NCBI GenBank assembly: GCA_039679385.1
Contig: JBDKVB010000148.1
Location: 1 to 37,236, forward strand
Direction of reading: 5' to 3'
Source: Armatimonadia bacterium
GTDB lineage: Bacteria > Armatimonadota > Zipacnadia > Zipacnadales > JABUFB01
Length of the DNA stretch: 37,236 nucleotides
Part shown: piece by piece, positions 7,902 to 37,236 of the stretch
Numbering within the stretch: the stretch's first letter is position 1
Layout of the letters: the number at the start of each line of letters is the position of its first letter
Notes under the pieces: generated by a model
Told to the model about the DNA's origin: nothing
Seen by the model: the letters and a program-made list of their open reading frames with translations, nothing else
The model's database searches: none
Translations under genes and position numbers: made by a program

Positions 7902-7907
7902 TGGTGG
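7880..7907 (-). terminator. Terminator hairpin sharing its stem with the ssrA 3' end
   Basis: CCACCATCTCC (minus 7907-7897), loop ATTCTC, GGAGATGGTGG (minus 7890-7880): a perfect 11-bp stem followed by TTTGCTG. The left arm contains the CCACCA of the mature tmRNA 3' end (7902-7907). The U-tract is short (three T), so termination may be partial. Confidence 0.65.
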
Positions 7908-8251
7908 AGGCGGCGGGAATTGAACCCGCGTCCGAAAAGGGGACCACCAGAGCATCTACGAGCGTAGCGTCCGTTTGGTTTTCGCCGGGAAGACCCACGG
8001 ACGCAAGGTTCCGCTCGGCTAGCCCGTTACCTGATTCCCCGGCCCTTTAGCGGGCGGTTATGGCCTGGGTATCCGACCTGGATAATGTCCCGGGGGGTCG
8101 GGTCGGAGAAGACCCCGGGGGACATAGCGGACTATGCCGCTAGTGCCAAGGGTTGGTTGGCGTTTGTCGTTTTCCCGCGTTTAACGAGATTACGGGGATC
8201 TCGGCTCGCAGCCCTGACGCTCCTGCCTCCCCGTCGAGACCAATCGCCCCC
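7902..8251 (-). ncRNA. ssrA: Transfer-messenger RNA (tmRNA)
   Basis: A one-piece 350-nt tmRNA that rescues stalled ribosomes with SmpB. The 5' end GGGGGCGATTGGTCTCGACGGGG and the 3' end GGTTCAATTCCCGCC...CCACCA are the canonical termini. The 7-bp acceptor stem GGGGGCG/CGCCTCC includes the G3-U70 wobble pair that specifies charging by alanyl-tRNA synthetase, and the CCA is genome-encoded. The tag reading frame lies at 8132-8176. The downstream segment is rich in GC stems (for example CCCCCGGGGTC / GACCCCCCGGG), consistent with the pseudoknots. It has its own promoter (8267-8295), and a terminator overlaps its 3' end. Confidence 0.98.
8132..8176 (-). other. tmRNA proteolysis-tag reading frame
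   Basis: The frame reads GKTTNANQPLALAA followed by TAG. Setting the resume codon at GGG (8176-8174) gives 14 residues matching the B. subtilis tag GKTNSFNQNVALAA in length and at 9 positions, including the ALAA degron for ClpXP. The resume codon is set by this similarity, not by direct evidence. Confidence 0.85.
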
Positions 8252-31302: not shown

Positions 31303-32895
31303 ATGAAGCCGATGCCTTTTCTGTTGCTAGTAGCCCTTGTCTCTCCCGTTCTTGCGGCCCAGACGGTCGCCTTTGACAAGCCCTCCGACCTCGACCGCTG
31401 GCAGATTGAGGTGGGCAAATGGGCCGTGCAGGACGGCGCGCTGCTACACAGCGATGCCTCATCCCATCGCTCCCTGATCTGGTCTCCAGCGCAGGCCTAC
31501 TCAGACGTCGACCTCACCGTGGACTTCTACATCTACCCCGACGGCAGCGGCGTTCGTGCCCCGGGCATCGTCTACCGCGCCGTCGACCAGGTAACCTACT
31601 ACTACCTGCACTTCGACTACCTCAACAAGCAGATCGTCTGGGTTCGCTCGGACTCCGCCAAGGAGTGGACGGATGCCCGGCGGCACCGCACCGATGCCCT
31701 CAAGACCGGTGAGTGGATGACCGCTCGTGTGGTCTGTAAGGGCGACACCCACGAGGTCTACCTGAACGGCAAACTGCTGTTCACCGAGAAGGATGCGACG
31801 ATCCCCGCCGGAGTGATCGGCCTGCGAGCGGGACAGGGCAAGATCGCCTTCCGCAATCTCCGTGTCGAGGGCACGCCGGCCACTCTCGCGAAGCCCTTTG
31901 TGGTGACCAAGCCTCCCTACGGCGTAGTCTGCTCAGATGCCGGCGCCGGAGCCTACGAAGCCTTTCCGGACCTGTGCCGCACGCGCTCTGGCGAGTTGCT
32001 GTGCGTGTTCTATGCGGGGTACAGCCACGTGAGCGTGCCCACGGAGAAGCTGCCCAGGGGTGCACGGATCGCCCTGTGCCGCTCCACCGACGACGGCAAG
32101 AGCTGGTCGCCTGCCGAGACGGTGGTCGACACACCCATCGACGACCGCGACCCCTCCATCACACAGCTTGCCAACGGTGACCTGCTGTGCGTGTACATGA
32201 GCTATGACCCGACCCGCAAGCCGGGCACCCACCAGGTCTTCACGGTCCGCTCCAGCGACGACGGCAAGACCTGGAGTGAGCCCGCACGTGTGCCCACACC
32301 TCTCACCGGCAACGAAGCCGTCTCCACACCCGTGGTGCCACTCGCCGACGGCCGCCTCCTGCTTCCGGTGTACGGGCAGATGCGGGAACCGACCACGCCG
32401 CCAAGCTGCGTCGTCGTCCTCCAGTCCCGCGACCAGGGCAAGACCTGGGAGAGCCTGAGTCTCGTTCGCTCCAAGGATTCCGAGTCGCACGAGCCCTGCC
32501 TGCTGCCCATGCCGGACGGTCGTCTGCTGATGATGATCCGCCCCACCATGACCTCCTGTGAATCCACCGACGGCGGCAAGACCTGGACAGAGCCCAAGCC
32601 CATCGGTGTACAGGGCGACGCCCCCTACCTCTTGCTCACCTCCAAGAACCTGCTGCTCTGCGCCTTCCGACATCGCCCGACAGCCAGCACCTGTCTCATC
32701 TACAGCCGGGACTTCGGCCGCACCTGGAGCGATATGGTCACCCTCGACAGGGTGCTGGGCGCCTACCCGAGCATGGTCGAGCTTCCGGACGGCCGCGTCC
32801 TTGTCGTCTACTACACCGAGGGCAGCGGTTCGGACATCCGCTGTCTGTATCTCCGCGCTGACGATAGCGGCGTGCAGGTTCTGCCGCGCGACTGA
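31303..32895 (+). CDS. Secreted sialidase-type (BNR/Asp-box) protein with N-terminal LamG-like domain
   Basis: 530 residues with a signal peptide (MKPMPFLLLVALVSPVLAAQ). Residues about 25-190 form a jelly-roll domain of the LamG/DUF1080 type (VDFYIYPDGSGVRAPGIVYRA, YYYLHFDYLNKQIVWVRSD, VYLNGKLLFTEKDATIPAGVIGLRAGQ). Residues about 200-525 are a six-bladed sialidase-like propeller with five Asp boxes: STDDGKSW, SSDDGKTW, SRDQGKTW, STDGGKTW and SRDFGRTW. An RDPS segment and SHEPCLLPMPDGRLLMMIR fit the exo-sialidase-like family, but substrate identity is open; many relatives in soil bacteria are not true sialidases. The SD is distant (GGGAG about 12 nt before the ATG). It is followed after 49 nt by the URO-D-like gene, probably in one operon. 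Confidence 0.88.
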   Translation: MKPMPFLLLVALVSPVLAAQTVAFDKPSDLDRWQIEVGKWAVQDGALLHSDASSHRSLIWSPAQAYSDVDLTVDFYIYPDGSGVRAPGIVYRAVDQVTYYYLHFDYLNKQIVWVRSDSAKEWTDARRHRTDALKTGEWMTARVVCKGDTHEVYLNGKLLFTEKDATIPAGVIGLRAGQGKIAFRNLRVEGTPATLAKPFVVTKPPYGVVCSDAGAGAYEAFPDLCRTRSGELLCVFYAGYSHVSVPTEKLPRGARIALCRSTDDGKSWSPAETVVDTPIDDRDPSITQLANGDLLCVYMSYDPTRKPGTHQVFTVRSSDDGKTWSEPARVPTPLTGNEAVSTPVVPLADGRLLLPVYGQMREPTTPPSCVVVLQSRDQGKTWESLSLVRSKDSESHEPCLLPMPDGRLLMMIRPTMTSCESTDGGKTWTEPKPIGVQGDAPYLLLTSKNLLLCAFRHRPTASTCLIYSRDFGRTWSDMVTLDRVLGAYPSMVELPDGRVLVVYYTEGSGSDIRCLYLRADDSGVQVLPRD

Positions 32896-32944
32896 ACCGC
32901 CCGTAACTGACGCAGACTTCGCCCCACACACGCAGGTGTTCGCA

Positions 32945-34096
32945 ATGGCCCGGTCCATCAACGACGCACATGCCGCTCTTGCCATCAAGCGCTCCATGGA
33001 GGTCAGACGCGAGGAGTACCTCGACCACATGACCTTCCGCCAGAACCGCAGGGCGCTCTTCACGGAGATCTTCGGACCCATCGTCGGACTCAAGGAGGAA
33101 TGGGCGGCGCAGGGAGCGTCGCCCCAGGAACTGGACATGTCGGCCTTCCGGTTCCGCCGCCATGCGGTCGGGGGCATCCCGCTGAACACCGGTTGGATGG
33201 GCGGCCCCGAGCCCACCCTCCAGGAAGAGACCGACGACTACATCATCGGCACCGACCGCTACGGGCGTCGTGTCAAGCTCATGAAGAAGGCCGCCACGCT
33301 CCCGCTGCCTCTCGATCACCCGGTGCGGACCATGGATGACTGGCTCGCCCTGCGCCACCACTACGAGTTCTCCGAGGCCCGCTTCGGCAAGGACTGGGAG
33401 CAGACCGCAAAGGCCCACCTGGAGGCCGGTCGCGTCGTGAGCGTCTCTATTCCGGGCGGCTTCGACGAACCTCGGCAGCTTCTCGGCGAGGAAACCCTCT
33501 GCGTGGCCTACTACGAGCAGCCCGAGCTGATCCACGACATCCTGGAGACCATCGGCTACACCGCTTACCGTGTGCTTGAGCGCGTCTCCCAGACGGTCAC
33601 CGTCGATATGCTCAGCGTCCACGAGGACATGGCGGGCAAGGGTGGCCCGCTGGCCGGCCCCAGGCAGGTAACGGAGTTCATCAAGCCCTACTACCGCCGT
33701 CTCTGGGACATGCTTCAGGAGCGCGGTGCGCGGGTCTTCAATCAGGACTCCGACGGTGACATGAACGCCGTCATCCCCGCCTTCCTCGACGCCGGGGTGA
33801 ACATCATGCACCCCATGGAGCCCGCAGCGGGCATGGACATCGTCAAGACCCGCGAGACCTACGGTTCGCGTCTCGCCTTTGAGGGCGGCATCGACAAGCA
33901 CGTGCTGCGCCAAGGTCACGGGGCGATCGAGGCGGAGCTCGAGTACAAGATCCCGCCCATGGTCGCTTCGGGAGGGTGCGTGCTGGGGCTGGATCACCGC
34001 ATCCCCAACGGAACGCCGCTGGAGGCATACCGCTTCTATCATGCCAAAGCCTGGGAGATCATCGAGCGAGAGGAGGCCCGGTTGGCCAGGTCTTGA
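32945..34096 (+). CDS. Uroporphyrinogen-decarboxylase-family protein (MtaA/methyltransferase-like)
   Basis: 383 residues of the URO-D superfamily, a TIM-barrel group including HemE and corrinoid methyltransferases. Typical segments are SVSIPGGFDEPRQLLGEETLCVAYYEQPELIHDIL, VDMLSVHEDMAGKGGPLAGP, ARVFNQDSDGDMNAVIPAFLDAGVNIMHPMEPAAGMDI and GSRLAFEGGIDKHVL, ending in GGCVLGLDHRIPNGTPLEAYRFY. It lacks the N-terminal arginine motif I expect in HemE, and it sits with glycan genes, so heme synthesis is unlikely. Related genes are abundant in carbohydrate loci of Armatimonadota and Verrucomicrobia; methyl transfer or demethylation of sugars or methoxy groups is a hypothesis. The ATG at 32945 follows GCAGGT at 7 nt. 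In-frame codons extending upstream overlap the sialidase gene and are not coding. Confidence 0.87.
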   Translation: MARSINDAHAALAIKRSMEVRREEYLDHMTFRQNRRALFTEIFGPIVGLKEEWAAQGASPQELDMSAFRFRRHAVGGIPLNTGWMGGPEPTLQEETDDYIIGTDRYGRRVKLMKKAATLPLPLDHPVRTMDDWLALRHHYEFSEARFGKDWEQTAKAHLEAGRVVSVSIPGGFDEPRQLLGEETLCVAYYEQPELIHDILETIGYTAYRVLERVSQTVTVDMLSVHEDMAGKGGPLAGPRQVTEFIKPYYRRLWDMLQERGARVFNQDSDGDMNAVIPAFLDAGVNIMHPMEPAAGMDIVKTRETYGSRLAFEGGIDKHVLRQGHGAIEAELEYKIPPMVASGGCVLGLDHRIPNGTPLEAYRFYHAKAWEIIEREEARLARS

Positions 34097-34311: not shown

Positions 34312-35484
34312 ATGAGTCTCACCCGCAAAGCCCTGGCCGTCGGTGCCGCGCTTGCGCTGTGCCTGGCTGCCGTGGGACTGGGATCGATGGTCCGGATGGC
34401 CCTACCTGGGCTTGCTCCGCCCGTCGCCTACGCACAGCAGGCAACGGCCACCACTCAAGCCGCTCTGCCCCAGGCTCGTGTCGAGAAGTTCACCAACGAG
34501 GGGGTTGTCCGTGGCAAGGTCTTCATCGGCACCCGCGAGGTTATCCGCTGCGTCTGGCCTTCTGCGGAGCTTGAGCCCTTCGAGCGGGCATCGCTCGCTG
34601 CAGGTCGCATCAATCTCGCGCTGGGGGCTGGCGCAGGTCCTGGTGACTTCCAAGCGGTCCAGCAGCAGGCGGGCGGTCCTTGGATAGTCGTCGCCGGGGA
34701 CCGCGTGATCATCAGCGTAGCTCCCAAGGAGCCCGCTGCCTACGGAATCACAGAGCAGGGGGTTGCCCAGCGCTGGGCAACCAGCATTAACAACGCGCTC
34801 TACGAGGCCTTCGGCACCAAGCCCGGCCAGCCCAAACCTCTGCCGCCGATGCCTCTTGAGGCGCGCAAGGCGGTCGTCAACGGCAACGAAGCCGGCGTCC
34901 TGGTCTACAACAACAACGAGGTCCTCCGCATCCTCGCCCCCGCTGCGAGCATGGGTGCCTATGACCGCGCCAACATCGTGGCCGATCGCCTCCGCAAGGC
35001 CGTCTCCGAGGGCGCAATGGCCCAGGATGTTCGTGCCGCCGATGTCTACGGGATGTCCGTGGTCCAGGTCGGCGAGACCCTCCTGATCACCGTCGATGAT
35101 GAGGACGCCCGGCGAGCCGGCAAGGAGCCGCAGGCCCTGGCCCGCACCTGGGCCTCGAGCATCTCCAATGCCATCGCCGCTCACTACGCCAGCGCCGGTG
35201 GCTCAGTCCAGCCGCCGACCGAGGAGTGGCAGCCCACAGAGCCCTACGAGGACAAGTGGGTGCCCATCATCAGCGTGCTTGAGGGCGTCAAGCTCGGTAT
35301 GGCTCGGGTGAACGGCCCGTCCTCCGCAGTGTCCCTCGTTCAGGCGGTTGCACAGCTTGAGACGCACTGGAAGGACTACGTCGAGATCGACCTCTACGTA
35401 CCCATCTCCACCAAGGTGCCGGGGAAGACCCTTGACCGCGTCAAAGCCGTCGGGGTTACCGGCCTGGGTGACATCAAACTCTAG
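34312..35484 (+). CDS. Secreted tandem-repeat protein with MscS-periplasmic-like domains and a C-terminal domain shared with its neighbour
   Basis: 390 residues with a signal peptide (ALCLAAVGLGSM...AYAQQ, cleavage near 42). Residues about 57-168 and 183-292 are repeats of each other. Each has an N-terminal strand pair with REVIR/NEVLR, then PFERASLAAGRI / AYDRANIVADRL, IVVAGDRVIISV / VQVGETLLITV, and QRWATSINNAL / RTWASSISNAI. The pattern AGDRV(L/I)...V....A...G......A..WA..I..AI reminds me of the periplasmic domain preceding MscS channels in cyanobacteria, but there is no channel here. Residues 317-390 form a separate domain matching the C-terminus of the next protein. No function is known. 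TAGGGAGGT lies 7 nt before the ATG. The next gene starts 14 nt after the stop. Confidence 0.8.
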   Translation: MSLTRKALAVGAALALCLAAVGLGSMVRMALPGLAPPVAYAQQATATTQAALPQARVEKFTNEGVVRGKVFIGTREVIRCVWPSAELEPFERASLAAGRINLALGAGAGPGDFQAVQQQAGGPWIVVAGDRVIISVAPKEPAAYGITEQGVAQRWATSINNALYEAFGTKPGQPKPLPPMPLEARKAVVNGNEAGVLVYNNNEVLRILAPAASMGAYDRANIVADRLRKAVSEGAMAQDVRAADVYGMSVVQVGETLLITVDDEDARRAGKEPQALARTWASSISNAIAAHYASAGGSVQPPTEEWQPTEPYEDKWVPIISVLEGVKLGMARVNGPSSAVSLVQAVAQLETHWKDYVEIDLYVPISTKVPGKTLDRVKAVGVTGLGDIKL

Positions 35485-35498
35485 AGGAGGCGCCAGCC

Positions 35499-35966
35499 AT
35501 GATCAAACGCAAGCCCTATCATTGTCTCGTGGCGCTCTTGTGCGCCTTCTGCTTCTTCGTCGGCCTCAATGCCGCACCACCTCCGGCCATGGCACTTGAC
35601 CTCGGAGGCGCCCTCGGAACGGTCCTTAAGGTCGGCGGCATCGCTCTTGTCGTCAAGCAGTTCGGCGACCAGATCGACAGCTTCATCAACAGCGTGCTGG
35701 GCCAGAAGGGCATCGGGCACGAGGGCAAGACCAAGGTCGTACCGATCCTCCGCATCGGATCGGGCACGGCTGTCGGTGCGGTTCAGGTCGTCGGTCCCGC
35801 AGTCCAGGTCAAGAAGGTCCAGGCGGTCGCAGAGGTTGAGATGACCATCGGCAATCGCGTCCGCGCTCGAGCCCTGATTCCCATCACCACCAAGAAAGCG
35901 GAGACTTCCAGCATCCGTGGCGTCGGCGGAGTCGGGGTCTCGGCCAACATCAAGTTCCCGCTGTAG
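35499..35966 (+). CDS. Small secreted protein sharing a C-terminal domain with the upstream protein
   Basis: 155 residues. A signal peptide (CLVALLCAFCFFVGLNAAPPPAMA) is followed by a hydrophobic/amphipathic region (LGGALGTVLKVGGIALVVKQFGDQIDSFINSVLGQKG, about residues 35-71, possibly membrane-interacting). The C-terminal domain at 81-155 runs VVPILRIGSGTAVGAVQVVGP ... VQAVAEVE ... ALIPITTK ... NIKFPL. That domain aligns without gaps over 60 positions to residues 317-376 of the upstream protein, with 21 identities counted by eye. The family is otherwise unknown to me. GGAGG lies 7 nt before the ATG, and the gene is in the same operon. The hairpin at 35995-36040 follows. Confidence 0.8.
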   Translation: MIKRKPYHCLVALLCAFCFFVGLNAAPPPAMALDLGGALGTVLKVGGIALVVKQFGDQIDSFINSVLGQKGIGHEGKTKVVPILRIGSGTAVGAVQVVGPAVQVKKVQAVAEVEMTIGNRVRARALIPITTKKAETSSIRGVGGVGVSANIKFPL

Positions 35967-36142: not shown

Positions 36143-37236
36143 ATGACACGCTGCGTCATCGCTTTGGTCCTGCTCATCGTCGGCATCGCTTCCGCCCAGG
36201 TGACTGAGCCGGTCGGCGGTCCACCCACACCACCACCCCTGCAGCCCCAGGCCGACTACTCTCGCAGCGCCCCGAGCTTGGGCGACAAGACCTATACAGT
36301 CCATGTGGCGGGCACGGTCCGCGACGCCTTCACCGAGCTACGCAAAGCAACAGGGCTCTACTTCTCACCGGCCTTCGAGCCACCGGGCCGACCGGGCGTC
36401 GTCCAGAGCCCCGCCAAGCTCATGGAGACCCCTGTGTTGCTGGACTTCGAGAACACAACGCTGGACAAGATCCTGCTCTCACTGTGCGAACAGGCGGGTC
36501 TCGTCTACGAGGTCAACGCAGGCCAGATGATCACCTTCCGACTCGGCGACCTGAAGCTGGACAGCCGCCCAACCGTCGGGGTCGAGGACTTCACCCTCCG
36601 CGTTACTGGTGCCGGCATCACCTCTCGGCGCAGCTTCATCTTCGGTTGGGGCTGGGACACGCCCGATCAGCCGGACTACAACGACCAGCTCTACCTGACC
36701 CTGCAGATCAGCGCGAAGTCGCCCGAGGCGATGAGCCGTCTGGCGGGCATCGGAGGCACCCTCAATGCCGTCACGGACAAGGGCAGCACGCTGGACTCGC
36801 CCATGGTAGGGCCGGATGGTGACCGCCCCATCATCGTGTCACGAGTCGCGGGTGGACCTGGCGGCCTGCCAAGCCTGACCTCCTACCCCACCCAACTCAT
36901 CTTCACCGCCCCGACGGATGGCGCGCAGAAGGTCACCCGGCTCCAGGGCAACCTGCTTTTGTTCTCCGACGTGTCCAGCATCGACCTGCGGATTCCAGCG
37001 GGAGCTGGGCCCGGCGAGAGCTTCGAGCAAAACGGGACCAAGCTGACGGTGGAGAGCTCCCGGCAGCTTGAGGACGGGTTCGAGATCGTCCTGCGGCGCA
37101 CCGACCCTTCGCGTCCAACTCCGCCGCCTCCGCCACCGCCTGCTCCCCTTGTGCCTCCTGGAGGACCTGTTCCGCCCGCTGGTCCGGGCGCTCCGCCACC
37201 AGCCGGACTGGGCGCTCCAGGTGGACCGGCGGCCCC
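36143..37236 (+). CDS. Secreted protein with STN/secretin-like N-domain and Pro/Gly/Ala-rich tail, cut by window edge
   Basis: Open from ATG at 36143 to the right edge (364 codons), so the 3' end is missing. GGAGGAGGA lies 8 nt upstream; an in-frame ATG at 36134 abuts the SD and is less likely. A signal peptide (CVIALVLLIVGIASAQ) is followed by a Pro-rich stretch. Residues about 50-135 resemble short secretin/TonB N-domains: YTVHVAGTVRDAFTELRKATGLYF and PVLLDFENTTLDKILLSLCEQAGLVYEV. Residues about 150-335 are beta-rich, with no family recognised. From about 335 the chain is low-complexity (PTPPPPPPPAPLVPPGG, then GPGAPPPAGLGAPGGP). A secretin core, if any, would lie beyond the window. It may be an envelope assembly or pilus accessory protein, which is inference. 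Confidence 0.75.
   Translation, partial: MTRCVIALVLLIVGIASAQVTEPVGGPPTPPPLQPQADYSRSAPSLGDKTYTVHVAGTVRDAFTELRKATGLYFSPAFEPPGRPGVVQSPAKLMETPVLLDFENTTLDKILLSLCEQAGLVYEVNAGQMITFRLGDLKLDSRPTVGVEDFTLRVTGAGITSRRSFIFGWGWDTPDQPDYNDQLYLTLQISAKSPEAMSRLAGIGGTLNAVTDKGSTLDSPMVGPDGDRPIIVSRVAGGPGGLPSLTSYPTQLIFTAPTDGAQKVTRLQGNLLLFSDVSSIDLRIPAGAGPGESFEQNGTKLTVESSRQLEDGFEIVLRRTDPSRPTPPPPPPPAPLVPPGGPVPPAGPGAPPPAGLGAPGGPAA

Follow-up and report, generated by a model that had tools for sequence, protein, structure and literature searches.

An unnamed family of small exported proteins in bacteria with outer membranes, and its apparent duplication in Armatimonadota

Two adjacent genes in the window (the whole 37,236-nucleotide stretch of Armatimonadia bacterium DNA that was analysed) encode exported proteins, P0001 and P0002, that end in the same beta domain. 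The shorter protein is the ancestral form and the longer one arose by a single later duplication. The family of the short form occurs in lineages with outer membranes (Armatimonadota, Synergistota and some Negativicutes). The reading that we favour, though only tentatively and at a little under an even chance, is that the P0002 family is a non-lipidated accessory of outer-membrane assembly, placed at the inner face of that membrane, with P0001 as its Armatimonadota paralogue. The genes and their parts are as follows.

34312-35484, plus strand: P0001, the longer protein, 390 amino acids, with a signal peptide, two repeats and the shared C-terminal beta domain
34312-34440, plus strand: signal-peptide-like segment of P0001 (residues 1-43), a hydrophobic stretch with an AYA end; helix 3-30 in the model
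34474-34812, plus strand: first exported repeat of P0001, about 110 residues (55-167), strands-helix-strands-helices
34855-35193, plus strand: second copy of the repeat (182-294)
35245-35481, plus strand: shared beta domain of P0001 (residues 312-390)
35499-35966, plus strand: P0002, the shorter protein, 155 amino acids, the ancestral form of the family
35499-35594, plus strand: signal-peptide-like segment of P0002 (residues 1-32) with an AMA end and no lipobox, from the sequence; helix 6-24 in the model
35607-35699, plus strand: conserved glycine-rich amphipathic helix of P0002 (residues 37-67)
35718-35963, plus strand: shared beta domain of P0002 (residues 74-155), YbbR-like by fold comparison

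Both open reading frames lie where the first-pass annotation had placed them. They are separated by 14 bases and are presumably co-transcribed. Both products had been called secreted, and each does begin with a signal-peptide-like segment, as judged from the sequence. In P0002 and in the family members of Veillonella ratti and Pelosinus this segment has an AxA-type end and there is no lipobox. The helix that follows the signal segment has an amphipathic moment of 0.55-0.64 in three family members. Most relatives of P0001 possess one repeat, corresponding to the second copy only; both copies are present in the window's family. P0001 and P0002 were scanned against Pfam and NCBIfam with no usable match, in line with the first-pass annotation, which knew of no named family for the domain, and no model of either collection covers the short relatives of P0002. 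A match to AvrE (E 0.46) was dismissed as noise. A sequence search of the PDB revealed no relative of either protein.

The common domain had been proposed from a gapless alignment with 21 identities counted by eye. BLASTP of P0001 against P0002 also returned 21 identities, over 56 positions without gaps (residues 313-368 against 77-132, E 3e-8), and a search of the window's own genome with P0002 recovered the C-terminus of P0001 (E 1.4e-4). To avoid circularity, a profile was built from 66 relatives of P0002 only. It matched residues 312-390 of P0001, the whole C-terminal domain, with 58.3 bits, whereas none of 1000 shuffles of P0001 scored more than 8.3 bits. Profile-profile alignment of the two C-termini gave a probability of 99.8 over 79 columns; the first-pass annotation had suggested a profile search as a check. 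P0001 and P0002 were each modelled with AlphaFold2 from an alignment of its own, and both models contain a beta domain of five strands in identical order: 77-86, 91-99, a helix, 109-117, 121-129 and 146-154 in P0002, and 312-321, 327-336, a helix, 345-353, 357-366 and 381-389 in P0001. Structure prediction for each domain had been a second suggested check. The BLASTP, profile and profile-profile matches and the common strand order demonstrate that the C-terminal domains of P0001 and P0002 are homologous; their resemblance is far beyond chance, and the domain reaches the end of both chains.

Co-occurrence of the genes had also been put forward as a check. A P0001 relative directly precedes a P0002 relative in all 19 of the 19 fetched close-relative loci of the window's class. 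What did not survive was the idea that the domain is peculiar to the pair, since the short form is present in three phyla and mostly lacks the longer partner there. When 143 beta domains were placed in a tree, one branch, supported at 98/88, separated the P0001-type domains from the rest; the tree rests on few columns, and the exceptions are a mislabelled fragment (L063) and partner-type genes labelled in the other group (L034, L097). The single branch indicates that the P0001 type goes back to one old duplication within Armatimonadota, with both copies kept. A few families of other classes have the long type after the short type (L026, L034), and in others (L025, L035, L041) two full beta domains are joined in one protein. 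No plasmid copy was found. On this reading P0001 came about when the beta domain was duplicated and became fused to another exported domain, present in one or two copies. The conserved pairing and the common domain would suit a P0001-P0002 hetero-oligomer, and the two proteins probably act together.

Members of the P0002 family consist of a signal peptide, a glycine-rich amphipathic helix and one beta domain. They were detected in 83 of 101 Armatimonadota genomes, 38 of 61 Synergistota genomes and 6 of 199 Bacillota genomes. All six Bacillota are among the 48 with LptF/G over cut-off, our marker of outer-membrane Bacillota (hypergeometric p 1.5e-4, uncorrected for kinship). Most LptF/G-bearing Bacillota lack the family. 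LptF/G was present in all 101 Armatimonadota genomes, and nearly all of the 18 that lack the family carry an LptD-like gene. A separate genome scan used two peptide patterns; the loci from its best 80 of 167 matches belong to Armatimonadota, Negativicutes, Synergistota or bacteria and metagenome-assembled genomes whose domains cluster with theirs in the tree, and weaker relatives may exist in other phyla, given that these are the best 80 of the 167. The window's genome is itself one of Armatimonadota, its kin being metagenome-assembled genomes with the labels Armatimonadetes, Candidatus Zipacnadia and WS1.

The fold of the beta domain was compared with known structures. The top match of VIA-align to the P0002 model was 4qdy, with Z 5.4 across 73 residues, followed by 5hqh with Z 4.8 across 64 residues, and 2kxy was also among the matches; 4qdy was first for the C-terminal domain of P0001 too. 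Z values up to 5.4 can also come from a common arrangement. These three are the YbbR entries of the PDB found by a YbbR profile search, 2kxy and 4qdy clearly and 5hqh weakly. Foldseek against the PDB returned nothing below E 0.001 with the P0001 or the P0002 model, which left VIA-align as the only structure search to indicate YbbR, and the Pfam YbbR model (PF07949) had no match over cut-off in P0001 or P0002. Compared with YbbR, the family profile reached a score of 24.5, higher than any of 200 column-shuffled decoys (at most 16.7), with a probability of 43 over 29 columns; for the full-length family profile the hhalign probability was 11.5. A short motif, V-GP-s-V-kVkAV, aligns between the family and YbbR. 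The predicted beta domain probably has a YbbR-like fold, and it may share descent with YbbR domains. YbbR domains of CdaR regulate the c-di-AMP cyclase CdaA, and the first rank of the fold for both models, together with the profile match above decoys, could be taken to mean that the family is a CdaR-like envelope sensor. We regard this as very improbable. Unlike the inner-membrane-anchored tandem repeats of CdaR-type proteins, P0002 has one domain after a signal-like helix ending in AMA and no membrane anchor after the signal peptide. Its beta domain also stands behind an amphipathic helix and its gene keeps other company than YbbR genes do; true multi-domain YbbR genes are found elsewhere in the same genomes (for example, G000:C31).

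The surroundings of P0002 family genes (FAM) were determined by mechanical gene prediction, with labels for LptD-like, SLH and c1 genes assigned from our own profiles and checked in part with Pfam. Here, c1 denotes an exported family of about 300-400 residues encoded beside FAM in Negativicutes and Synergistota (L109:10418-11602, L142:10652-11569, L138:6178-7338); its L109 member has no Pfam match. One Armatimonadota locus (L038) carries on one strand, in this order, an lptB-type ABC ATPase, LptF/G, DUF3084, RuvX, an OmpM-type SLH porin, FAM and an LptD-like gene; LptF/G, DUF3084, SLH porin and FAM recur at three others (L027, L093, L123). OmpM, the SLH-domain tether porin of diderm Terrabacteria, is a frequent gene neighbour. 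Of 37 Armatimonadota loci that lack the long partner, 12 have an SLH porin gene directly upstream of FAM and in the same orientation, some of the loci counted coming from the same or near-duplicate genomes. Among 87 Armatimonadota loci (1.2 Mb) there were 13 SLH reading frames, 12 of them directly upstream of FAM. Pelosinus has five SLH porin genes followed by FAM, c1 and LptD. These arrangements raise the possibility that the family is an OmpM accessory, aiding assembly of the SLH porin or the tether from outer membrane to wall. We consider it unlikely, because most Negativicutes and the Synergistota loci have no SLH porin beside FAM. P0001 and P0002 differ from OmpM itself in having neither an SLH domain nor a beta barrel.

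An LptD-like gene is directly downstream of FAM at L033, L038 and L043, and also, by coordinates, at G084 and G055. The order FAM, c1, LptD-like is seen in 17 of 26 Negativicutes loci, and Synergistota have c1, FAM and then LptD/LptA-type genes where the contig extends far enough. The Pfam LptD barrel model found no LptD over cut-off in the 101 Armatimonadota genomes, and we therefore built our own profile from Negativicutes and Armatimonadota LptD-like proteins. It matches 95 of the 101, part of the matches being LptA/OstA-type domains. No Pfam model matches the LptD-like proteins of Armatimonadota, and their assignment rests on this profile.

In Veillonella parvula, the products of the two genes that precede lptD, Vpar_0645 and Vpar_0646, were detected in outer-membrane fractions and among surface-exposed proteins by Poppleton et al. 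(2017, PMC5491611). The authors saw no homologues, described Vpar_0645 only as uncharacterised, and proposed that the two proteins cooperate with Lpt or stand in for LptE (PMC5491611). In seven Veillonella genomes we found FAM, then c1, then LptD where the fetched stretch reaches it. In V. ratti these three genes cover about 3.27 kb, compared to 3.26 kb reported for V. parvula. The Veillonella family members thus have the order and span of the Vpar_0645 locus. Judged by this gene order and span, not by its own sequence, Vpar_0645 is very probably a member of the family, and Vpar_0646 probably belongs to the c1 family. If so, as is very probable, the fractionation of Vpar_0645 is the only localisation data for the family. 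Unlike the window's pair, Negativicutes have no second copy of the domain fused to other domains.

The proposal of Poppleton et al. bears on a further reading, that the family is a non-homologous replacement of LptE which plugs LptD or helps it to fold. FAM precedes lptD in Negativicutes and in some Armatimonadota and lies inside the Lpt cluster in Synergistota. According to a review, diderm Terrabacteria rely on Bam, Lpt and related machines to build their outer membranes and lack outer-membrane lipoproteins, LptE included (PMC11784454). Like LptE, the P0002 family comprises small exported proteins that are encoded near LptD in some lineages. In contrast to LptE, an LptD-associated outer-membrane lipoprotein, it has no lipobox, no sequence relation between the two was seen, and it is no obligatory companion of LptD. 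Many genomes with LptD-like genes lack the family, whose occurrence is patchy, and in most linked Armatimonadota FAM follows OmpM rather than preceding lptD. A true LptE replacement is thus doubtful, slightly more so than an OmpM accessory. The same absence from many genomes with an LptD-like gene makes the family an accessory rather than an obligatory part of Lpt.

In the window's class none of the 42 pairs with known upstream sequence has an OmpM/SLH porin nearby. The window's genome has LptF/G and an LptD-like gene elsewhere; the class has lost the linkage of FAM to OmpM and Lpt while the genes persist. Because of this loss the first-pass annotation could not see the OmpM/Lpt company of the family. 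The gene downstream of FAM also varies between groups. Both observations fit the explanation that the linkage is an inherited old gene order and the family has some unrelated envelope role. This deserves to be taken more seriously than the other alternatives and is still improbable, since FAM is found next to OmpM or LptD again and again, in three phyla whose gene arrangements differ. Gene linkage itself does not show interaction with LptD or OmpM. Together with lineage and the location data, the neighbours point to the outer membrane, LptD and OmpM.

For diderm Terrabacteria, which lack outer-membrane lipoproteins (PMC11784454), a non-lipidated helper is the kind of protein to look for. In the accessory role that we favour, P0002, exported and non-lipidated, with an amphipathic helix in front of its single YbbR-like beta domain, would leave the inner membrane, touch a membrane through the helix and offer the beta domain to a partner. 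The family would work on the inner face of the outer membrane, most likely aiding the assembly or retention of LptD and perhaps of OmpM. The gene would, in the window's class, have moved from the OmpM/Lpt locus to sit with the gene for P0001. The fuller proposal, in which an unnamed non-lipidated YbbR-like accessory serves both LptD and OmpM in the absence of lipoproteins and a duplication in Armatimonadota created a two-protein unit, we hold more loosely, as a possibility of roughly one in three. The genes of this family of two-membrane bacteria often neighbour those of the outer-membrane assembly machines, which makes the family a testable candidate for the helper that diderm Terrabacteria supposedly lack. 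Its position beside LptD and OmpM in three phyla offers a concrete gene and a concrete complex for outer-membrane assembly. The unnamed family has one probable member already seen in outer-membrane fractions in 2017, and this unexplained Veillonella protein is joined to the family its discoverers could not find.

Several further features were recorded. The repeat of about 110 residues in P0001 has no Pfam family. It also occurs in other exported Zipacnadia proteins (L068:3-734, L082:735-2525), one of which has an Ig-like, Big_2-like domain. No support was found for an origin of the repeats from MscS channels. A URO-D-like protein (PF01208) is encoded directly upstream of the pair, at 32558-34096 on the plus strand. 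Directly after the pair, at 36143-37236 on the plus strand and running past the window end, is a gene for an exported protein with a weak match to STN, the secretin/TonB N-terminal domain (E 0.0016, below the Pfam cut-off). The window also contains a tmRNA gene at 7902-8251 on the minus strand (166 bits).
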